64,000 bases of DNA, from positions 1 to 64,000 of the IMG/VR virus record IMGVR_UViG_3300036759_000122. One strand, 5' to 3'. A model generated the notes under the pieces. That model worked only from the letters and a program-made list of their open reading frames with translations. It made no database searches and had not been told where the DNA came from. Made by a program: the position numbers and the translations under genes. Source of the DNA: a virus. This document shows, in pieces, positions 8,587 through 43,368 of this stretch; position 1 is the stretch's first letter, and each line of letters opens with the position of its first letter.

Positions 8587-11500
8587 GTGCTGCTCACCGA
8601 GGCCGAGCTGGCCCGGAAGGCCGCGCACCAGAGCGACAACGAGCTGAACTACGCGCGGTTCGGGTGTTACCACACCGCGTTGGGCCGGGTGTTGAAGGGC
8701 CACCGCCGTGCCCTGCTCGAAGACGCCGCGATGGACCGCCCGCCGCCGGGCATCGAACCGGTCCGCCACGTCATCGAGGGTGCCCGCGCGTTCAACGCCC
8801 ACCACGGCCTGGGCGACCCGCACGGCGACGTCGACTACCACCGGGTGCGCACCCACCGGGGGTTGTTGACCGACCTGGCCAAGGCCTACGACCGGATGCC
8901 CGAGGACGACCCCGAGGCGCACCGGCACTTCGCCGCCATGGGCCGCGAGGTGGACCGCCAGTACGAGCACATGACCAACCGGATGGGCATCCACGTCCAG
9001 GTCACCGACCACGACCCGTACCGCGACGTGCACGAACTGCGCGAGGATGTGGCCAACAACCACCGCATCAAGGTCCTTGGCACGCACGCGACCGGCGGGC
9101 ACCCGTTCTTCTCCAACGAACAGAACGACCGGTTCCGTGCGGTGCACGACCTGTTCGGGCACCTGGGCACTGGGCGCGACTTCGACCGGCACGGCGAGGA
9201 GGCCGCCTTCCAGGCGCACGCCCGGATGTTCACCCCGCAGGCTCGTGGTGCGCTCGCCTCCGAGACCCGCGCGCAGAACGCCCACCTGATCACCACCGGG
9301 CGTTTCGGTGCCCAGAAGATCGCGTTGATGCCGAAGCGGTTGTGGCACCCCGGCCTGGCGCACATGGCGGCTTCGGACCCGTCATGGGAGAATGATTTTC
9401 ATGCGATCCAGCGAGCTGCCTCCGGATCATCGGGACTACATGCATCCCGAGGTCGAGGCCGAGTTGGAACGGCGGATGAACGACGGGTACCGCTGGGACG
9501 ATCCGAGTCGAGTGGCACATACCGAACGCGAGTTGCGCGAGCAGATGGACCGCGATCTGGCAGTGGCCGAAGAACACGAACGGCGACGCAGGACAGCCAG
9601 TTCGACTTCCGCGTCCGTAGGCATCCGGGACTCGAATCCGACATCCTGAACCTGCCGTCTGAACTTCGGCCCAAGCTGCATAACCGCATTATCGAGATGG
9701 CGCGCGGCCATGAGCCGCCTGATACGCACGACCTTGACGAAGAACCATTGTCACGAGGCAGATGGCGTGCCGGGACGATCATGGACGAAACCGATCCCCA
9801 GCACGAGCAAGATCGTTGGAGGTGGATCCACCGCTACCACGGCGGCGACCTGCAGATCTTCGCCGCCGGGGCACACCATAAGCCGGGAGAGCCGGTCGAT
9901 CCCGATGCTCCTCCCGACATTTATCGACATGCCCGGGAGCGATGGGAAGACCCCGATCGGCGGTATTTCGCCGCCATCGAGTACGTCGCCATGGGCCACG
10001 CCGGACCGGACTACACCGGGTTGAGTTTTACCGACACACAGCACCACCAGTACCGCGAGATCTCTTACCGGCGCTTACAGGCATACCATCCCGACCACGA
10101 TACGCCGGTCGGCGAGATCTCCTTCTCGGTGTCCCCGCCGCACGCCAAGCGCCCGTTACCGTTGATCCAGATCGACAACGTCGGGGTGCCCGCCGAACAC
10201 CGCCGCCGGGGCGTGGCCACCGCCTTGATGAACGAGCTGGAGCGGCAGTATCCGGACCACGTCATCGACCACGGGGAACGCACCAAGCCGGGGGCGGACT
10301 GGGCGAAGTCGAAGTACGGGCCGGGCCAGACCCGGGGTTGGTCCAAGGCCCGGGAACGGTTCACCACCACCGACCTCACCCTCAACGGTCGGCCCTACAC
10401 CGCCATGGGCCAAGCAGGACCGGACTACGAGGGCCTGACCTTCAAAGACATGTCCGGGTTCGAGTACGGCGCGCACCCGGACCTGCACCACCATCGATTG
10501 TTGTTCGCCAGACACCCGGACGAACCCGGGTACCTGGGCCACGTCCAGTACGAACAACACCCGCACGAGATCGAGATCCACAACCTGACCGTGCACCCGG
10601 AGTACCAACGCCGGGGGGTGGCCAGTGCGTTGATGGGCGAACTGGAACGGCGCAATCCCGGCGTCGTGATCAACCACGGGATGCGGTCCTCGTCCGGCAC
10701 GCAGTGGGCCAAGGACTTCTACGGCCACGAGGGCCCACCATTGAACAACGGCCAGCAAGGGTGGACGGTCGCCCCGCGCACCCGCGACCGGGAGAGGGTC
10801 GCCAAGCACGTCGCCGCCGAGGGATTACCGCCCGGTTACACCATGGCGGTGCGCGAGGACCCGAGCACCGAGCGGTGGGGCCTGCCCGCGCTGCACGTCA
10901 AGGTTCGCCACGGCGGTCGAGAAGTCGGCGCGTTGAGCGTGCACCAACGCGACATCGACGACGAGCGGGTCGGGCACCCGAACATCTACGTGGACCCCGA
11001 GCACCAACGCCAGGGTCTGGCCAGTGCCATGTACGCCGAGGTGCACCGGCGGTGGCCGAAGGTACCGGTGGTGCATTCCGAACACGCCAGCGATGCCGCC
11101 AAGGCGTTGAACCAGCGCCTGCTGGAGCACTTGCCGCAGTTGCACCGGCAGGCCGCCGCCGAGCGCTACTACCACGCGACGCCTTATGACTTGGATCGAG
11201 AGACGCATGTCCGGTCACCGATGGAGACAGGTCGGGAGCCGCATTGGGGTGGAATGGGCGACCAAGAGGACGCTCAGGTCTTCGGCACCCACTCCATCGA
11301 GAACGCGCACGAGTGGGGCGGCGAGATTGCCGACTCGTCCCACTACCGCATTTACGAGGTGCAGTCCGAAGGAAATGTGGAAGACCACTCTCACACCTGG
11401 GCCGCACCCCGGGCTCGGATCCTGCGTCGGGTGCACCCTCCGGTTGCCAAGCAGGCCGCCGCCAGGCACACCATGTCATTAGCCGAACTGCGCACGTTGC

Positions 11501-13329
11501 CTACCGAGGACTACCGGGTGCGGGTGGACAAGGTGCGGGCCAAGATGGAGCACGAGTGGCGGCACGGCACGGACACCCAACGCACCTCCTGGCGCGTACA
11601 CGGCGGCCCGTCGGGGTACCTGGATCAGCTCGGTGCCGACATCACCGCGCACGGCATCACCGAACCGATCGTCATCGGGCACCGGCCCAATGGGCGCACC
11701 ACGATCTACGACGGCACGCACCGGGCCCTGGTCGCGCACGAACAGGGCATCGACCCGGTGCCGGTCACCCATCTGGATCTGGTGCCGGGTCAGCACATTG
11801 CGTGGGACAATGGGAACCATGGCCGAGGACAAGCCCCGCCGGTACCCGTTGGACGAGAACGGGCGACCGGATCTGGCCGACGAGTGGGATCTGCCCGAGG
11901 ACTGGCCCAAACCGGAGGACAATCCGTACGCGGTACGACCGGGCGAGGATCATCGCGAAGTGTTCAACCGGATGCGTACCGACGGTCGTCGCGAGAGAGA
12001 AGCTCGGGAAGCCGCCGAGAGGGAGCGCGCGGTCAAGAGCTGATTGTCCATCTCCCAGATCCGCATCCTCATCTGAAGAACGATCTCGATCGCCTCAGTG
12101 ATGACGATCATGAGCATTACCTAGATCGTATTGACGTCCTCAGGACTCATGATCTCGGTGGCAATACTCATTTACTGACTCACGGTCGACTTGCTGGGTG
12201 GTCTGGTACGTACCTGCACGATGACGCCCAGACACACGTAATCGTGCATCGCCGTCGTCGATACACAAGAGTGCCTCGATTACAGGTGTTGGCGGTTGGC
12301 CCCCATGACGAGGCATACGCGAATGCCGAGCGGCGATTGTCCAATCCCTCACGACGGTTCGCCGCCGCCGACTGGGACGAGTTCCGGCGCATCCAGGACA
12401 CTCAACGCCGCCGGTACGAGCGGCCCGGCGTCGGTGGCGACCAGGAAGACCGGGACCGGTACTTCGGCACCGGTGAGATGCGCGGGGTCGGCGAGGAACG
12501 CCTGATCACGCCCAAGGACTGGATCACGCACTCGCGCAACCAGCGCTTCGAGGACACCGACCCGCACTTCCAGGAGCACTGGCGCGGGTACGAGCTTGGA
12601 CACGCGCACGGTGCGAGCGGCAGGGTGGACGCCGAAGAGTTGGAACGCGAACACGCCCGCAGCCCGCACCAGGACCATTTCCGGGCCGGGTACGGGGAAG
12701 GACTGGAGGCCGCGATGGACCGGGTGGCGGTGTTGGTTGGACCGGGTACGCCCACGGCGGTGACCATCCCGAAGACCGCGCACGTGTCCGGCAACACCGT
12801 GGACGCCCTGCACTGCCCGTTCTGCGGTAGCGGTTCGGTCACGGCACGTTCGGACGGGTCGATCGAATGCAGCTTCTGCACCGCCGCCTACACGGTGCAG
12901 GTGCAGCCGCAGTACTCGGCGTTCCCGCAGACCGTCAACGACATGCCCTACCCGTGGCCGGGCCGCGACGACCTGGGTGCGGGCGGCCTACCGGGTGGCG
13001 TAGTAGACGAACAGGACGGCGAGCAGGACGAAGCCGACGGCGAGCAGGATGGCGACGGGTCGGTCCCGCCCTGGTTGGGTGGCGGTGAAGGAGATGACCA
13101 GGACGCCGAAGACGAGGCAGACGAGGGCGAGGATGAGGACGAGCCCGAGGATGACGAGGCGTCCGTCCATGGCAGCAAGGCTCCTCCGTTCGGCAAGAAG
13201 AAGTCCTACCTGAACACACGTGGGCAGGAATTGTCCGAAGAGGACTACTTGCGGCACTTGGCGATCCTGGTCAGCCCGGACCCGGCGGCCATGGCGGCGA
13301 AGGTCAGGAAGCAGCGGGTGGGTGCGTGA
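8587..13329 (+). CDS. Polyvalent protein: GNAT x3, ART-like, ParB-like, two RelE/ParE-like domains, zinc ribbon
   Basis: An uninterrupted 1580-codon frame starts at a GTG. Residues about 180-236 carry a conserved phage segment (FRAVHDLFGHLGTGRDF, GEEAAF, ETRAQN). About 338-465 is RelE/ParE-like. Three GNAT acetyltransferase folds follow at about 469-582, 607-725 and 751-853 (RRRGVA, QRRGVA, QRQGLA). An ADP-ribosyltransferase-like YHAT domain spans about 859-959, and a ParB-like domain 965-1068 (GITEPIVIG, YDGTHRALVA). A second RelE-like domain is at 1152-1262. A zinc ribbon (CPFC...CSFC) and an acidic tail end it. Two stretches, about 272-335 and 1078-1150, read as G/R/S-rich low complexity in this frame but as normal protein in the +1 frame; see the nested genes. 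Whether one 1580-residue chain or several products is made is unresolved. The domain mix matches polyvalent proteins, thought to be packaged and injected. Confidence 0.7.
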   Translation: MLLTEAELARKAAHQSDNELNYARFGCYHTALGRVLKGHRRALLEDAAMDRPPPGIEPVRHVIEGARAFNAHHGLGDPHGDVDYHRVRTHRGLLTDLAKAYDRMPEDDPEAHRHFAAMGREVDRQYEHMTNRMGIHVQVTDHDPYRDVHELREDVANNHRIKVLGTHATGGHPFFSNEQNDRFRAVHDLFGHLGTGRDFDRHGEEAAFQAHARMFTPQARGALASETRAQNAHLITTGRFGAQKIALMPKRLWHPGLAHMAASDPSWENDFHAIQRAASGSSGLHASRGRGRVGTADERRVPLGRSESSGTYRTRVARADGPRSGSGRRTRTATQDSQFDFRVRRHPGLESDILNLPSELRPKLHNRIIEMARGHEPPDTHDLDEEPLSRGRWRAGTIMDETDPQHEQDRWRWIHRYHGGDLQIFAAGAHHKPGEPVDPDAPPDIYRHARERWEDPDRRYFAAIEYVAMGHAGPDYTGLSFTDTQHHQYREISYRRLQAYHPDHDTPVGEISFSVSPPHAKRPLPLIQIDNVGVPAEHRRRGVATALMNELERQYPDHVIDHGERTKPGADWAKSKYGPGQTRGWSKARERFTTTDLTLNGRPYTAMGQAGPDYEGLTFKDMSGFEYGAHPDLHHHRLLFARHPDEPGYLGHVQYEQHPHEIEIHNLTVHPEYQRRGVASALMGELERRNPGVVINHGMRSSSGTQWAKDFYGHEGPPLNNGQQGWTVAPRTRDRERVAKHVAAEGLPPGYTMAVREDPSTERWGLPALHVKVRHGGREVGALSVHQRDIDDERVGHPNIYVDPEHQRQGLASAMYAEVHRRWPKVPVVHSEHASDAAKALNQRLLEHLPQLHRQAAAERYYHATPYDLDRETHVRSPMETGREPHWGGMGDQEDAQVFGTHSIENAHEWGGEIADSSHYRIYEVQSEGNVEDHSHTWAAPRARILRRVHPPVAKQAAARHTMSLAELRTLPTEDYRVRVDKVRAKMEHEWRHGTDTQRTSWRVHGGPSGYLDQLGADITAHGITEPIVIGHRPNGRTTIYDGTHRALVAHEQGIDPVPVTHLDLVPGQHIAWDNGNHGRGQAPPVPVGRERATGSGRRVGSARGLAQTGGQSVRGTTGRGSSRSVQPDAYRRSSRERSSGSRREGARGQELIVHLPDPHPHLKNDLDRLSDDDHEHYLDRIDVLRTHDLGGNTHLLTHGRLAGWSGTYLHDDAQTHVIVHRRRRYTRVPRLQVLAVGPHDEAYANAERRLSNPSRRFAAADWDEFRRIQDTQRRRYERPGVGGDQEDRDRYFGTGEMRGVGEERLITPKDWITHSRNQRFEDTDPHFQEHWRGYELGHAHGASGRVDAEELEREHARSPHQDHFRAGYGEGLEAAMDRVAVLVGPGTPTAVTIPKTAHVSGNTVDALHCPFCGSGSVTARSDGSIECSFCTAAYTVQVQPQYSAFPQTVNDMPYPWPGRDDLGAGGLPGGVVDEQDGEQDEADGEQDGDGSVPPWLGGGEGDDQDAEDEADEGEDEDEPEDDEASVHGSKAPPFGKKKSYLNTRGQELSEEDYLRHLAILVSPDPAAMAAKVRKQRVGA
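9401..9649 (+). CDS. Nested out-of-frame small ORF 1, antitoxin-like
   Basis: Inside the polyvalent gene, one frame over, an ATG at 9401 (alternative 9392) follows GGGAG. It encodes 82 residues whose first 65 look like genuine protein (ELPPDHRDYMHPEVEAEL, then REQMDRDLAVAEEHERRRR). The overlapping main frame is low-complexity G/S/R sequence there. Its end overlaps the start of a RelE/ParE-like domain in the main frame, the order usual for antitoxin then toxin. That pairing is inferred from position and size; no antitoxin family is recognised. Confidence 0.5.
   Translation: MRSSELPPDHRDYMHPEVEAELERRMNDGYRWDDPSRVAHTERELREQMDRDLAVAEEHERRRRTASSTSASVGIRDSNPTS
11819..12043 (+). CDS. Nested out-of-frame small ORF 2, antitoxin-like
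   Basis: In the same relative frame as nested ORF 1, an ATG at 11819 gives 74 residues: a Pro/Asp-rich front (YPLDENGRPDLADEWDLPED) and a charged helix (REREAREAAERERAVKS). The bases before it (TGGGACAATGGGAACCATG) closely resemble those before nested ORF 1 (TGGGAGAATGATTTTCATG). It stops at 12043, exactly where the second RelE-like domain begins in the main frame. That domain has no ATG, GTG or TTG of its own nearby. Confidence 0.55.
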   Translation: MAEDKPRRYPLDENGRPDLADEWDLPEDWPKPEDNPYAVRPGEDHREVFNRMRTDGRREREAREAAERERAVKS

Positions 13330-13640
13330 CCTCCTCGGCCACCGTCACCGCGTTGCTCGCCGACTACGACCTCGGCGAGTTCGCCCGCGCCTCCGAGCAT
13401 CCGTGCCAGGCGTCCCGGTTCCACTCACCGCGCCCGTTGTTGACCCGCCATTACGACTTCGGCACCCATTACGTCTCGTACTGGTTGTGCGGCACCTGCG
13501 CGGGCAACATCCAGATGTTCCTGTTGGTACACGAGAACGAGGGCGAGCTGCCCTGGTCCACGCTGCGCGAGTTCGGCAACGAAGTACGCCGTATCGGCAA
13601 CACCATTATCCTGCGCCGCCAGCAGGCCAGCCGTGGCTAG
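13326..13640 (+). CDS. Small hypothetical protein upstream of portal
   Basis: The GTG start overlaps the polyvalent gene's stop (GTGA). The 104-residue product has HPCQASRF and, later, WLCGTCAGNIQ, which could form a Cys/His metal site, and a helical C-terminus. It overlaps the portal start by 8 bases. No family is recognised. Confidence 0.65.
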   Translation: MTSSATVTALLADYDLGEFARASEHPCQASRFHSPRPLLTRHYDFGTHYVSYWLCGTCAGNIQMFLLVHENEGELPWSTLREFGNEVRRIGNTIILRRQQASRG

Positions 13641-16428
13641 TTTCGTCGTCACCGACAACCGGGGCCGCCGGGTGCCGTTGCCCAACGGCACGGCAGGCCC
13701 GCCAAACGGGTTCTCGCGGATCTCCACCCGGCGGGTCACCGAGGCCGACCAGCAGGGTTTCTCCTCGCGCGGGTTGCCCTTCGGCACGCCGGACGTCAAC
13801 GCCGCCGTGACGCACGCCCGGGCGCAGAAGCTGACCCACGCCTCACGGATGCGCCGCACCGGGGCGTACGGCGGCGGCACCGCGTCGATGCAGTTGGCCA
13901 CCTCCCGGCCGCGCGACCCGATGTGGTACTGGAAGCAGAACAACATCCCCTTCGACTTCACCGAGCCGGAGGAGCTGGCCAAGATCCGGGAGTTCTGCAC
14001 CACGCCGGACACCCCGGTCACCATGGCCGACAACTCCAGCAAGCCGATCGGCACCGTGGCGGTCGGCGAATCGGTGTACGGGTGGACCTACCGGTTGCAC
14101 GTCAACGGCGGTTTGGAACGCAACTGGGTCGCCTCGAAGGTGATCGCGGTCGGGGTGAAGCAGGCCCCGGTGGTCACCGTGACGCTGGCCAGCGGGGCCA
14201 CGGTCACCTGTACCGCCGACCACCGGTGGGCGAACCCGAACTTCACCAAGTTGCAGCGCACCGAGCGGATCGGGCCGTGGGTGCAGGCCGACTCGGCCAC
14301 CGAGTACCAGAGCGCGCAGGTCGGCACCGCGTTGTTGGCCGCGTCCAACTGCCGGGTCGAGCACAACGCGCGTGGGTACGGCTACCCGGCCGCCGACACG
14401 TTCGAGGACAAGGTGATCTCGGTCGAGCCGGTGCTCGACGAGGACGGCGTGTTGGTCTACACCGACGTGGTCTCGCTGCAGACGCTGACCGGCAACTACA
14501 TCGCGGGCGGGTACTGCAGCAAGAACTGCCGCCTGCTCTACGTGACGCACCCGATCGTGAGTGCCTGCATCGACGTCTACTCCAAGCTGCCTATGCAGGG
14601 GATGGCATTCACTTGTAAGGACCCGCAGCTGGTCGACTTCTACACCGACCTGTTCTTCGACCAACTGAATTACGAGGACTTCCTGCTCGACCTGGGCACC
14701 GAGTACTGGCTCTCCGGGGAGAGCTGGGGCCTGGGCGGTTGGAACGACACGCTGGGCGTGTGGGAGTCCGACGCGCTGATCAACCCCGACGACGTCGAGG
14801 TGGAGAACTCGCTGTTCCAGCCCGAGCCGCGCTACCTGATGCGGTTGCCCGAGTCGCTGCGCAAGATCCTCACCACCCGCACCCCGCACTGGCAGTACAC
14901 CCAGCTGGTCACCAAGTGGCCGGAGCTGGCCAACTACGCGTCCGAGGACGCGCTGATGCCGGTCTCGAACTACATCCTCAAGCAGCTGCGGTTCAAGGCG
15001 GATCGGTTCTCCAACCGGGGCATCCCGATTTTGATGCGCGGGTTCCGCACCCTGATCCAGGAGGAGATGCTCAACTCCGCGCTGGATTCCATCGCGGACC
15101 GGCTCTACACCCCGCTGATCCTGACCAAGCTGGGCGCGACCGCGCAGGACCTGGGCACTAACGTGCCGTGGATCCCTACCCAGGACGAGATGGAGGACTT
15201 CAACGCGGTGCTGGACGCCGCGCTGGCCGCCGACTTCCGCGCCTTGACCTACCACTGGGCCGTCGACATGCAGCCGGTGTTCGGCCGGGAGAACGTGCCG
15301 GACCTGTCCAACGACTTCGACCGGATCGTGGAACGCATCCTGATGGTCTTCGGGCTGAGCCAGACCATGCTCACCGGAGCCGAGGCGGGCGAGACGTACG
15401 CCGCCGACGCACTGAACCGCGACGTGGTCACCCAGCTGCTCTCGCACTACCAGAAGATGATCTCGCGCTACGTGCACGACCGGGCCGCGATCGTCGCCGA
15501 GGCGCAGGAGCACTACGACTACGAGGTGCGCCAGGGCCGCCGGTACCTGGTCACCGAGGAGATCTACGAGGTGGACGAGGAGACCGGCGAGGAGCGCATC
15601 GTCGAGCAGCCCAAGCTGTTGGTGCCCGACCTCGAATTCAAGACGCTCAACATCTCCGACGAGGAGGACGAGCGGCAGTTCGTCGAGACGCTGGCCGCAG
15701 CGGGCGTGCCGGTGCCCTACCGAGCCCGGCTGACCACCACCGGCATCGACTTCGACGAGGCGATCGAGGAGCGCTCCCAGGAGGACGTGGCGCTCGCGGT
15801 GGCCGAGCAGGAGACCCGCAAGAAGACATTCCAGGCGTTGCAGCGGGCCGGTCTGCCCATCGCCGCCGACCTGGCCCAGGACTTCTCCCCGAAGGCGATC
15901 CAGCCCGGCAACGAGCCCGCGCTGGGCATGGACGGGCAGGACGCGCTGCTCAACCCGTTGGGTCTCGCCCCCACCGACCTGCCCGCGCTCGCGCCGACCC
16001 AGGACGACCTGGACCAGGACACCGGCATCGAGGACACCAATGCGCCGCCGTCCGACCAGGGCGACGGGTACGGGCCCGGCGGTGAGGGTGACTACCCGGG
16101 CCGCCCGGAGGAGTCCGACGAGGAGCGTGACGGCATGCCGACCTCCAACCAGCGCGCGGCCAGCCTGGCATCCGGTTCTCCGGACACCAAACCGCCGATC
16201 ACCAAGATCTCCGGCTACCAGATCGGGCAGCGCTTCGGGATCCGCCAGGCGGTTGCCGAGCACTACGTCGCGCCGGACAACTCCGAGGAGGAGAACGCCC
16301 GCGACTTCCGGCCCACCGGCCGGTTCGGCGCGCCCCGGGTGCTCGGCATGCGCCAGTACCTGAACCTGGGCGGCGTGCCGACCCGGGTGGCCAAGCGGCC
16401 CCGTGGCGAGGAGGACGCAGATGGCTAA
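13633..16428 (+). CDS. Portal protein containing an intein
   Basis: The 931-codon frame starts at a GTG that overlaps the upstream gene by 8 bases. Outside the intein, the protein has typical portal features: an N-terminal arm; a core with CIDVYSKLPMQGMAF, LDLGTEYWLSGESW and VFGLSQTMLTGAEAGETYAADALNRDVV; a long helical stem; and a disordered acidic tail. Portals form the dodecameric ring through which DNA enters and leaves the head. Residues 122-298 are an intein, leaving about 754 residues after splicing. The last 8 bases overlap the next gene. I am confident in the portal call from length, order and motif pattern; there was no database search. Confidence 0.85.
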   Translation: MASFVVTDNRGRRVPLPNGTAGPPNGFSRISTRRVTEADQQGFSSRGLPFGTPDVNAAVTHARAQKLTHASRMRRTGAYGGGTASMQLATSRPRDPMWYWKQNNIPFDFTEPEELAKIREFCTTPDTPVTMADNSSKPIGTVAVGESVYGWTYRLHVNGGLERNWVASKVIAVGVKQAPVVTVTLASGATVTCTADHRWANPNFTKLQRTERIGPWVQADSATEYQSAQVGTALLAASNCRVEHNARGYGYPAADTFEDKVISVEPVLDEDGVLVYTDVVSLQTLTGNYIAGGYCSKNCRLLYVTHPIVSACIDVYSKLPMQGMAFTCKDPQLVDFYTDLFFDQLNYEDFLLDLGTEYWLSGESWGLGGWNDTLGVWESDALINPDDVEVENSLFQPEPRYLMRLPESLRKILTTRTPHWQYTQLVTKWPELANYASEDALMPVSNYILKQLRFKADRFSNRGIPILMRGFRTLIQEEMLNSALDSIADRLYTPLILTKLGATAQDLGTNVPWIPTQDEMEDFNAVLDAALAADFRALTYHWAVDMQPVFGRENVPDLSNDFDRIVERILMVFGLSQTMLTGAEAGETYAADALNRDVVTQLLSHYQKMISRYVHDRAAIVAEAQEHYDYEVRQGRRYLVTEEIYEVDEETGEERIVEQPKLLVPDLEFKTLNISDEEDERQFVETLAAAGVPVPYRARLTTTGIDFDEAIEERSQEDVALAVAEQETRKKTFQALQRAGLPIAADLAQDFSPKAIQPGNEPALGMDGQDALLNPLGLAPTDLPALAPTQDDLDQDTGIEDTNAPPSDQGDGYGPGGEGDYPGRPEESDEERDGMPTSNQRAASLASGSPDTKPPITKISGYQIGQRFGIRQAVAEHYVAPDNSEEENARDFRPTGRFGAPRVLGMRQYLNLGGVPTRVAKRPRGEEDADG
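13996..14526 (+). mobile_element. Mini-intein in the portal protein
   Basis: The insert begins with Cys (CTTPDTPVTMADNSSKPIG, block A) and contains VTCTADHRW (block B, TxxH). It ends GNYIAGGYCSKN, followed by a +1 Cys in the extein. It is 177 residues long with no LAGLIDADG or HNH domain, so it is a splicing-only mini-intein. The residue before the terminal Asn is Lys rather than the usual His. Exteins join as EELAKIREF plus CRLLYVTHP. Confidence 0.88.
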
Positions 16429-39544: not shown

Positions 39545-39720
39545 GTGATGAATCTTTGCGGAGGTGAGTGATGTTCCGCAAGTTTGCTTCTGCTGAAGTG
39601 TTGGCCGTTGCAAAAGGTGAGTCATTGAAAAAGGATGCTCATCGAGCGGTCTTTTCATTTGTACCTCGACCTGGGTTTCTCTATGTAAGGTCTAGAAGTA
39701 TATCTAGTCGCTGCAACGAC
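39031..39720. mobile_element. HNH insertion carrying a replacement 5' end for its target gene
   Basis: The segment starts where homology to the protease leaves the remnant (after YVRSR). It contains the HNH gene in reverse and ends in a new, low-G+C version of the protease start that rejoins the native gene near codon 50. By hand count, bases 39601-39720 are 54 of 120 G+C, far below the neighbouring DNA. The edges are estimates from the protein alignment and composition. Confidence 0.7.
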
Positions 39721-42700
39721 AACTACGATTTTTTCGGCGCGGACGAGATCGCCAAGTCCTACCGGACCTTCATCGGCAAGCCGGTGTTCGTCAACCACAA
39801 CAACTCCGACCACCGCCGGGCCCGGGGGATGGTCATCGACGCGGTCCTGCACCGGGACCGCAACGCCGACGGGTCCCCGGATTTCTGGGTCGAAGCGCTC
39901 ATGGAGGTCGACGCCGAGACCTACCCGAAACTCGCCAAGTCGATCCTGTCCGGCGAGATCGACCGCACCTCGATGGGATGCGACGTCGAGTTGTCCAAGT
40001 GTTCCTACTGCGGCAACGAGGCGACCTCGCCGTTGGAGTACTGCCAGCACATTCCCGGCAAGAAGGGCAAGCGGATCTACAAGATGCTTCCCGACGGACG
40101 CCGGGAAGGACAACTCGTCTTCGAGATCTGTTCTGGTTTGTCGTTCTTCGAGAACTCACTGCTGGTGGAGCCTCCGGCAGATCCGACGGCTTATTTCCTT
40201 GGGCAGCCGGTATTGGGACCTGGTTTAGAGCATCTCAGGCAGAAAGCAGCGAATCTGCAGGCCGTTCTGGAGGAACAGCCTGCCGCGCCACGCCATGACA
40301 TGCCTAGCCGAGCCTCGACAAACCAAGCCCGGCCGTTGCAGCGTACGGCAGCGGCTGGTGACGACTGGCATGTCGGGATGGACCCTGAGCGCCGCCGCAA
40401 GGCCGAGGAGGCCGCAGGCAAGCTCTGGGAGGGGTTCCACCAGATCATGGATCCGGGGTCGACGCCCGCCTCACGCGTCTCCGACCGCAACATGCGGGTG
40501 ATGAACAACCTGCAGAACCTGGGATATCAGCCGCATCACATCAAGTTCGAGGACGACGAGGACGAAGGGCATCCGTACGCCCACATCCAGGGACCCAAGG
40601 GGTGGTACGGCGTCGACTACGGCGGCCCGCACATGGAGATCCGGCACCAGGCCACCGGCAACGAGTCCCACGACTTGATCAACTTGCAGCACTACGACAA
40701 GGAGACCCGCGAGCAACACCGGATGCCCGGGTACGGACCGCACGAGGCCGAGGCGGACCTGCACCACTGGGTACACGGCGACCCGGAGGAGACTGGCGGG
40801 AGCGCCGAGTACCTGGAGCACAACGACCCGCGCATCAAGCGGTGGATCGGCCGCCACCAGGCCGCGTTGCAGGTCGAGGCGGTCACCCAGGAGCATGCCG
40901 AGGACTACCTCAACGAGCACCCGATCAGCCCCACACACATCCTGAGCCGGGTCGAGCAGGCCGCCTCGGACCCGGCCACCCTGCACTCCGGGATGAAGTG
41001 GTACGACGACGCACACGGGATGGCCAAGACCATGGCCAGCCACCACGGCGTGCCGTTGCAGCACGCGGCAGGTGCACTGGGGGTCTACTCCTCCAGCTCG
41101 GCCCCGGCCCCGAACTTCCACATGGCCTCGATCGCCCTGCATGCCGGAAAGGGGATCTGGGCCCGTGAGTCCGGCGGTTCCGCCGAACACGGTTACAAGG
41201 GATCCCCGATGGCGTCCGAGGCCGATGCCAAGAAGGTGGACCGGATCTTCTCCGGAGAGCACTACAACGACGTCATCGGTTCGTCCAAGACCAAGCACTA
41301 CGCCCGGCTGATCCACGACCCGTCCAACGATCACGACGTGGTCATCGACCGGCACGCGGTGGCGGCGGCGATCGGTCATTACGGCAACTCCGGCGAGCCG
41401 TACAACAACGTGGCCGGGCCGATGGAGAACGTCAACGCCAAGGGGGCGGGCAAGCTCTACGACCGGTTCTCCGACGCCTACCGGCAGGCCACCCACCACC
41501 TGAACACGTCGCCCGAGTACAGCCCTCTGCGCAAGCACATGGTCCGGTCCGGACTGCTCGGCGAGGGCGAGAAGATCAAGCCGCACCAGGTGCAGGCGCT
41601 GGCCTGGATCGCGCAGAAGGACATCAGCGACCAGCATGCCCGCAACGACATGACCAACGCCAACCAGCGCGCCATCGACGACTGGCAGAACCACTACACC
41701 AGCCGGTACGGGGTGGACGCGCACCACCCGGTGTCCGGCAAGGGGTTCTACGGCCAGGAGCCGACCCCGGCGAAAGCGGCGAGCATGCAGCGCCTCTCCT
41801 ACGGGGAAACGAAAGCCCCTCAGGACGTCGACACGCTGCGCGACGAGCGGTGCGCGATCTGCGGTAACGACACGGCCTACGACGGGCGGGAGTGCCTGGT
41901 CTGCGGGTACATCGCGCCGCCCAAGGCGTTGGGTGACCCGGACGTCGACAAGGCCAAGCATCTGGACGAGTTGAAGCAGTCGGTCGACGACGCGCTCTCC
42001 GAGGTCGACCCGTCCCGGCCGGGTGCGGACTTCGACCCCGGCGACCTGGACGAGATCCAGGCCGAGATCGGTGAGGCGGGCACCCCGCCGATGGTGTGCC
42101 CGAACTGCGACTCGGTCTTCGACCCGGCCGAGGAAGAGATCAATGCCGGTGATACCTGCCCGGACTGCGGTCAGGCCGAGGTGGCGGAGGCCGAGCCGGA
42201 GGAGGGCGAGGGAGACGCCCAGGATGTGGCCGAGGACGAGGCCACCGAGGGGCTGCCCGGCGAACAGGCCGAGGACCAGGACGTGCCCAGCGGGGACGAG
42301 GACGAAGACGCCGACGAGGACGAGGAAGACGAGGACGGGGAACCAGACGACGAAGACGAGGAGGACGAGGAAGACAAGCGCAGACGTCGTCCTGTTGCCA
42401 GCCGGTCCGCGACCTCGAAGTACCGACCACCATCGAAGGGGTACGACATGCAGAAGGCACTGGCGGCACTGGCCGAGCTGCAGGCCCTGGTCGAGCACCA
42501 GCAGCACGAGAACCTGAAGCTGCAGCGGCGGCTCGCCGCCAAGGACAGCCAGATCCAGCGGTTGACCTACGGTCTGCAGGCGATCGCCCAGCATCTCGGC
42601 CCCGACGTGGACACCCTGGTGCGTTCGGCCATGCTGCGCAAGCGGGCCGACGAGCAGAACCCGGCCCAGCCGGTGCCCGAGCCCGCGCCGGAACCGCCGA

Positions 42701-43368
42701 CCGAGTCCACCGTGCAGGCCGAGACGCCGGAGGCGTTCGCCGACGTCACCGCGCCGGGCATGGTGCCGGGGTCCACCCAGGACGTGGCCGCCGACGCCGT
42801 CTCCACCGCGTACACGCCCGGTCAAGACGTGGGCGCGCCGCCACTGCGCCAGTTGGTCGACGTGACCCGGCCCATCGACGGCACCCAGGGACCGCGCCCG
42901 TTAAGCGAGACCAAGACCAACGTGGACGTGCGGGTGGGCAACCCGATGAACCCGCAGACCGCGTTCCCGCTCGGCGGTGACTTCGCCCAGGCGCAGCGCA
43001 CCGGTTCGGTCAACGGCGGCAGCGGGGACCTGAAGACGATGGCCTCGATCCGGCTGGCCAGGCTGCGCATCGCGGCCAACATCGAGGACGGCGAGGACCT
43101 GGCCATCGCGCAGCGCATCGCCGCCGAGCTGGACGTCCCGGCGATCAACGCCGAGATCGCCACGCTGTCCAACGTGATCAAGGCGAGTGCGGCGCGCCGC
43201 CAGCAGCAGCCACCGCCGCGCGGAGTGCCGCCGCGCCCGGCTCCGGGGGTGGGCCGCACCGTTCCGCCGATGACCCGTTCGGCCGGGTTGCGCACCGCAT
43301 CGCGGCCGGACGCCGAGGACGCCGACCTGGCGCTGGTTTTCCTCTCCGAGCAAGCCCTGTCCAGCTGA
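39571..43368 (+). CDS. Prohead maturation protease fused to modules and scaffold-like C-terminus
   Basis: The ATG at 39571 follows GGAGG at 6 bases. Residues 1-205 look like a head-maturation serine protease: FVNHNNSD with His near residue 76, and DRTSMGCDVE with Ser near 134. CSYCGNEA (about 142) is an added metal site. A pentamer mini-island encodes residues about 236-256. A domain with WYDDAHGMAKTMASHHGV and VIDRHAVAAAIG (about 474-600) follows. Zinc ribbons lie near 760-780 and 842-869, an acidic tract at 872-938, a coiled coil at 960-1010, and a helical tail ending before the capsid genes. Protease-scaffold fusions are known; the long modular middle is unusual. The first 50 codons come from the HNH insertion. 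Confidence 0.8.
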   Translation: MFRKFASAEVLAVAKGESLKKDAHRAVFSFVPRPGFLYVRSRSISSRCNDNYDFFGADEIAKSYRTFIGKPVFVNHNNSDHRRARGMVIDAVLHRDRNADGSPDFWVEALMEVDAETYPKLAKSILSGEIDRTSMGCDVELSKCSYCGNEATSPLEYCQHIPGKKGKRIYKMLPDGRREGQLVFEICSGLSFFENSLLVEPPADPTAYFLGQPVLGPGLEHLRQKAANLQAVLEEQPAAPRHDMPSRASTNQARPLQRTAAAGDDWHVGMDPERRRKAEEAAGKLWEGFHQIMDPGSTPASRVSDRNMRVMNNLQNLGYQPHHIKFEDDEDEGHPYAHIQGPKGWYGVDYGGPHMEIRHQATGNESHDLINLQHYDKETREQHRMPGYGPHEAEADLHHWVHGDPEETGGSAEYLEHNDPRIKRWIGRHQAALQVEAVTQEHAEDYLNEHPISPTHILSRVEQAASDPATLHSGMKWYDDAHGMAKTMASHHGVPLQHAAGALGVYSSSSAPAPNFHMASIALHAGKGIWARESGGSAEHGYKGSPMASEADAKKVDRIFSGEHYNDVIGSSKTKHYARLIHDPSNDHDVVIDRHAVAAAIGHYGNSGEPYNNVAGPMENVNAKGAGKLYDRFSDAYRQATHHLNTSPEYSPLRKHMVRSGLLGEGEKIKPHQVQALAWIAQKDISDQHARNDMTNANQRAIDDWQNHYTSRYGVDAHHPVSGKGFYGQEPTPAKAASMQRLSYGETKAPQDVDTLRDERCAICGNDTAYDGRECLVCGYIAPPKALGDPDVDKAKHLDELKQSVDDALSEVDPSRPGADFDPGDLDEIQAEIGEAGTPPMVCPNCDSVFDPAEEEINAGDTCPDCGQAEVAEAEPEEGEGDAQDVAEDEATEGLPGEQAEDQDVPSGDEDEDADEDEEDEDGEPDDEDEEDEEDKRRRRPVASRSATSKYRPPSKGYDMQKALAALAELQALVEHQQHENLKLQRRLAAKDSQIQRLTYGLQAIAQHLGPDVDTLVRSAMLRKRADEQNPAQPVPEPAPEPPTESTVQAETPEAFADVTAPGMVPGSTQDVAADAVSTAYTPGQDVGAPPLRQLVDVTRPIDGTQGPRPLSETKTNVDVRVGNPMNPQTAFPLGGDFAQAQRTGSVNGGSGDLKTMASIRLARLRIAANIEDGEDLAIAQRIAAELDVPAINAEIATLSNVIKASAARRQQQPPPRGVPPRPAPGVGRTVPPMTRSAGLRTASRPDAEDADLALVFLSEQALSS
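40278..40336 (+). repeat. Mini pentamer island (GCCNN) inside the protease gene
   Basis: About 11 five-base units with GCC in phase lie in frame between the protease domain and the next module. They encode PAAPRHDMPSRASTNQARPL. The orientation matches the 45.8-kb island and is opposite to the 27.6- and 30.2-kb islands. Confidence 0.75.

Follow-up and report, generated by a model that had tools for sequence, protein, structure and literature searches.

Out-of-frame ORFs nested ahead of RelE-like domains in a polyvalent protein gene of a bacterial virus

Iyer et al. (2017; PMC5512222) described polyvalent proteins from phages and from conjugative elements, with PBECR domains among their modules; a term search of that paper brought up no nested out-of-frame genes. 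No account of partners nested out of frame in such proteins emerged from term searches of the literature either, which speaks for novelty to a limited extent only. In the MuF polymorphic toxins of temperate phages, the small ORF is a separate gene located after the toxin gene (Jamet et al. 2017, PMC5576092), and the intragenic antitoxin RpnS, encoded within rpnL, consists of the C-terminal domain read in frame (Zhong et al. 2023, PMC10327210). At the locus described here, the gene-within-gene arrangement is real and unusual: within one 1580-codon ORF (8587–13329), the coding signal moves from the main frame to the +1 frame at 9401–9590 and again at 11819–12040, each time immediately before a RelE-like domain.

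The window, i.e., the whole stretch of DNA analyzed, is bases 1–64,000 of the 73,172-base linear IMG/VR virus record IMGVR_UViG_3300036759_000122, which derives from a bacterial virus that is kin to mycobacteriophage cluster C; the polyvalent ORF with its parts and the portal gene lie on its plus strand. The 1580-codon ORF precedes the portal gene (13633–16428; phrog_2833, E 1.2e-137), from which a single 104-codon gene separates it; this position places it among virion genes. Several different effector domains are combined in this one long protein (three GNAT domains, ParB-like and RelE-like domains, a zinc ribbon, and a phrog_3170 domain), and the Pag-Yong1 protein that shares its N-terminal domain is annotated as “large polyvalent protein”. 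Its place beside the portal gene, together with the known polyvalent proteins (PMC5512222), suggests that the product is packaged and injected with the DNA. The portal gene itself carries an apparent intein of about 177 residues at 13996–14526 (CTTPDTPVT... to YCSKN/C); the portal of the cluster C phage JayJay is likewise annotated as intein-containing. Elsewhere in the window, at 39568–43368, is a 1266-codon ORF with an N-terminal match to a head maturation protease family.

The polyvalent ORF opens with a 265-residue phrog_3170-type domain (8587–9380; 47% identical to mycobacteriophage Alice gp99) and closes with a conserved part bearing a zinc ribbon (12367–13326; CPFCGSG...CSFC) that is common to its relatives. 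In three aligned relatives of 593–631 codons (L049, L059, and L073), this C-terminal part stands right behind the phrog_3170-type domain with only a short linker, identifying the intervening ∼1000 codons (9381–12366) as an insert. From its 5′ end, the insert consists of a first cassette of nested ORF and RelE-like domain, three GNAT acetyltransferase domains in the main frame (9991–11150; matched by Pfam Acetyltransf_1 in three stretches and also in PHROGs), an ART-like segment assigned by eye only and without a family match (11161–11460; YYHATP...), a ParB/sulfiredoxin-like domain (11461–11800; ParB_N, E 0.13; PHROG ParB-like, 2.9e-4), and a second cassette. The closest relatives thus lack the entire insert, both cassettes included, in agreement with the original prediction that the cassettes had been inserted. 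G+C content is 0.62 and 0.60 in the two cassettes, as compared to 0.67–0.70 in the remainder of the ORF. A-rich joints are found between modules (RRYFAA at 9958, HRQAAA at 11146, AKQAAA at 11449, and RRFAAA at 12352) and could be processing sites. In another relative of the polyvalent ORF (L053, 7167–10316), an apparent large intein lies in the zinc ribbon between VFHC and CPFCGSG, and the DWDEFRR part sits ahead of the N-terminal domain. The phrog_3170-type domain also stands alone, in small ORFs of about 220–265 codons in many Micromonosporaceae genomes.

Both nested ATGs (9401 and 11819) were confirmed to lie in the same +1 frame relative to the main frame, and the claim that the two stretches read as protein-like only in +1 was borne out by a codon score derived from genes of the phage itself. 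The +1 frame outscored the main frame by 0.66 bit per codon at 9401–9590 and by 0.64 at 11819–12040, whereas in control windows of the same size from 19 clean genes, the gene frame was never outscored by another frame (0/2869 and 0/2807 windows). Main-frame codon scores in both stretches fell below those of every window of the 19 clean genes. Main-frame GC3 drops to 0.4–0.5 in both stretches versus about 0.85–0.93 upstream, and coding-type GC3 shifts to the +1 frame, reaching 0.71–0.77 in the nested ORFs. Across these stretches, the main frame is G/R/S-rich and linker-like and, as predicted, has no stop, but its openness is not remarkable. It is the frame that begins on position 3 of the nested codons, and in this phage's genes such frames are stop-free over 64–74 codons in 50–54% of windows; at this G+C, about half are open by chance.

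The two domains that follow in the main frame, tox1 (9589–9975) and tox2 (12040–12366), had been predicted to be RelE-like, and structure prediction had been proposed as a check. The AlphaFold model of tox1 (pLDDT 78) was matched best in a Foldseek search of the PDB by DinJ-YafQ (9lew_B; E 2.3e-4, prob 1.00), and the top 19 matches were all RelE-superfamily toxins, e.g., YafQ, YoeB, HigB, and RelE (E 2.3e-4 to 3.5e-2, prob 0.97–1.00), supporting a RelE-like α/β fold for this domain as modeled. The model of tox2 was poor, being reasonable in only one of five runs, and neither it nor a fold predicted from three sequences had a match in the PDB, so that the fold of tox2 rests on homology. At the sequence level, tox2 is 47% identical to tox3, a domain of another phage described below, and about 30% identical to tox1, and these relationships together with profile matches support its assignment as a RelE/ParE-type domain. 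A profile of all three domains was searched in 296 and in 201 actinobacterial genomes, and tox3 by itself in 296; the best matches, all weak, were by Pfam ParE-like (PF15781), ParE (PF05016), YafQ (PF15738), and YoeB (PF06769) proteins, and one of the matched actinobacterial toxins adjoins a ParD-like antitoxin. Neither tox1 nor tox2 matched a curated toxin family at cut-off in Pfam, NCBIfam, or PADLOC, and searching the PDB directly by sequence was uninformative. Taken together, RelE-type toxin identity is well supported for tox1 and, through homology, probable for tox2, and toxic activity is predicted for both. The low G+C noted for the second domain was also verified (57/120 at 12061–12180).

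Neither toxin domain has the form of a separate gene with its own start; both are fused within the 1580-codon frame. The first main-frame ATG, GTG, or TTG codons after the toxin starts are at 9697 and 12244, within tox1 and tox2, respectively. The prediction that no start codon lies near the domains thus holds at both toxin starts, the one exception being a GTG at 11884, in the main frame of the second filler. Lacking start codons, the domains would be produced only as segments of the long protein, unless initiation is unusual.

Nested ORF 1 (9401–9649; 82 codons) is protein-like to about position 9592 and runs some 55 bases into tox1, while nested ORF 2 (11819–12043; 74 codons) stops exactly at the start of tox2, which its TGA overlaps. 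The ribosome-binding (Shine-Dalgarno) energy at the start of nested ORF 1 is −7.4, close to the gene median of −7.3; that of nested ORF 2 is weak (−4.5). The near-identical bases noted at the two starts (TGGGAGAATG...CATG and TGGGACAATG...CATG) are present, but they read W-E/D-N in the main frame, and at the first site the relative Alice gp99 reads W-Q-N, indicating that main-frame coding accounts for the similarity at least in part. On this ground, a shared element was rejected. The third case described below is also without these bases. A small ORF stands at the antitoxin position before each toxin domain, although neither nested product matched any known antitoxin family. No convincing homologue of either was found outside the cassettes in virus records or in 296 actinobacterial genomes. 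A viral match of nested ORF 1 was spurious, as the matched frame has stops and lies inside another long gene, and weak actinobacterial matches of both ORFs (E 1e-4 to 1e-2 per genome across the 296 genomes) were not significant. Judged from sequence, the nested ORFs are probably translated and are candidate antitoxins that may neutralize the toxin domains.

A third cassette was found by virus-record search in another phage (L142/L128; IMGVR_UViG_3300036773_000146), whose polyvalent ORF also carries an SprT-like peptidase. The order is the same, i.e., a domain, a +1 ORF with a good Shine-Dalgarno sequence (ribosome-binding score −9.4), and a RelE-like domain, tox3, which is 47% identical to tox2 and about 31% to tox1. 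In the filler before tox3, GC3 again shifts to the +1 frame. Between nested ORF 1 and the L142 nested ORF, similarity is confined to the pairing of their +1 frames (p about 0.003) and is marginal given that 27 frame pairs were tested. Nested ORF 2 resembles neither of them.

Capture of gene pairs in which the toxin became fused while the small gene stayed out of frame with its own start is the most economical reading of this arrangement, and we give the complete scheme somewhat less than an even chance. Two antitoxin-toxin-like pairs, each a small charged gene followed by a RelE/YafQ-type toxin gene, would have been captured with other effector domains by the gene for a polyvalent protein associated with the virion. 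The toxin frames would have fused in frame to the long protein, with the small partner genes remaining between domains in +1. In the producing cell, ribosomes would translate through the filler to yield the long protein, and internal starts at ATG 9401 and ATG 11819 would probably yield two small proteins too. As for neutralization, packaging, cleavage, and delivery, we infer that the small proteins most likely restrain the toxin domains in the producing cell and that the long protein goes into the virion, possibly is cleaved at its A-rich domain joints, and is delivered unaccompanied by the small proteins. The RNase-like domains would then become active in newly infected cells only.

The nested stretches may alternatively be relics, that is, partner genes trapped by the fusion whose translation has been lost or is needless, leaving the main frame to use them as flexible linkers. 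The linker-like composition of the main frame agrees with this possibility, as do the nested GC3 values, lower than those of most genes of the phage, and the weak ribosome-binding site of nested ORF 2; moreover, fusion would be the sole event required, since chance alone keeps about half of such frames open. Both +1 frames nonetheless remain open with good codon scores, and nested ORFs 1 and 3 retain adequate or good ribosome-binding sites. We regard relics as unlikely, though deserving serious weight.

It is also conceivable, at a lower level of probability, that the nested ORFs are translated small genes that have nothing to do with the RelE-like domains, polyvalent ORFs in general having taken up +1 genes of varied function. 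In favor of this is a frame-switch screen of 219 long ORFs from the retrieved G+C-rich loci, in which internal switches, every one of them to +1, were found in 5 of the 22 ORFs with a phrog_3170 domain versus 3/197 others (p 3e-4), an excess that weakens to p 0.03 when the comparison is restricted to ORFs of at least 900 codons. A 69-codon +1 ORF with GC3 of 0.99 and a strong Shine-Dalgarno sequence lies in an annotated large polyvalent protein (L006, 2558–2764; Pra-JY27, also OL906435.1 Pag-Yong1 and OQ594354.1), and another clear case, again with a strong Shine-Dalgarno sequence, is present in L030. In two giant ORFs, from a Halomonas contig and an uncultured freshwater bacterium, +1 products directly precede a phrog_3170-type domain (codons 2106–2172 of ORF 1578 in L033 and about 1135–1200 of ORF 4323 in L039); these products are homologous to one another, with a score of 64 against 26 ± 4 for shuffles, above the main-frame score. 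Apparent +1-nested ORFs thus recur in polyvalent proteins beyond RelE-like neighbors, and those in L006, L030, L033, and L039 adjoin domains with no known toxicity, so that an antitoxin should not be assumed from nesting by itself. Screen matches at ORF 5′ ends were discarded as tails of upstream genes, and one in a Pro/Gly-rich portal tail (L009) as low complexity. Against unrelated genes at the RelE-like domains stands the position of the nested ORF immediately before the toxin domain in 3/3 RelE cases. In type II modules, the antitoxin is usually encoded directly before the toxin.

A programmed −1 frameshift joining each nested ORF to the next domain, yielding a separate small protein plus toxin, had been offered in the original prediction as an alternative, and it does not stand up well. 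The passage from nested to main frame is indeed −1 in both cases, and the toxin domains are without a start codon of their own. Neither nested frame, however, contains a slippery heptamer, the nested ends differ (some 55 bases into tox1 versus the start of tox2) with no shared signal, and no frameshift is needed, as the main frame is free of stops from end to end; we consider this reading very improbable. Sequencing or assembly errors, raised by the source being a linear IMG/VR record and not an isolate genome of known quality, are the least credible explanation, as four compensating indels would be required, the independent assembly of L142 has a third cassette in the same order, and +1-nested ORFs also occur in the isolate phages Pag-Yong1 and Pra-JY27.

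To our knowledge, how a producing cell survives its own delivered toxic domains is unsolved for most polyvalent proteins. If captured pairs with neutralizing partners are the correct reading, a nested, undelivered antidote would explain this survival and would constitute an internal-gene counterpart of toxin-immunity pairs, made in the producing cell only. Such antidotes would be overlooked by gene callers that do not allow long overlaps. The broader generalization, that polyvalent phage proteins carry undelivered antidotes as +1-nested genes between domains, recurring across several phage lineages, we hold to be doubtful. Even without an antidote role, recurring +1 genes suggest that polyvalent proteins grow by swallowing gene groups, which needs only a stop-free frame, as supplied by high-G+C genomes.

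With respect to known systems, the protein resembles the polyvalent proteins of PMC5512222 in being long and mosaic, in lying by virion genes, and in its GNAT, ART-like, ParB-like, and BECR (RelE-fold) domains; it differs from the PBECR domains given there in that its own are without a Pfam match and appear nearest to YafQ/YoeB/ParE toxins. As in MuF toxins (PMC5576092), where the fusion partner is a structural protein, a toxin domain is fused to a phage protein and accompanied by a small putative immunity ORF, but here the small ORF precedes the toxin domain, within the same long ORF and in +1. The arrangement is further reminiscent of RelE/ParE-superfamily type II modules (dinJ-yafQ, yefM-yoeB, and parDE), in which a small gene stands directly before a RelE-fold toxin, and the predicted fold of tox1 is shared with them; unlike in those modules, the toxin is fused on both sides and without a start codon, and the nested protein matched no antitoxin family. 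The proposed antitoxin would resemble RpnS (PMC10327210) in being translated from a start within the gene that encodes its toxin. RpnS, however, is read in frame with its toxin, whereas the ORFs nested here are in +1, stand ahead of the toxin domain, and have no sequence in common with it.
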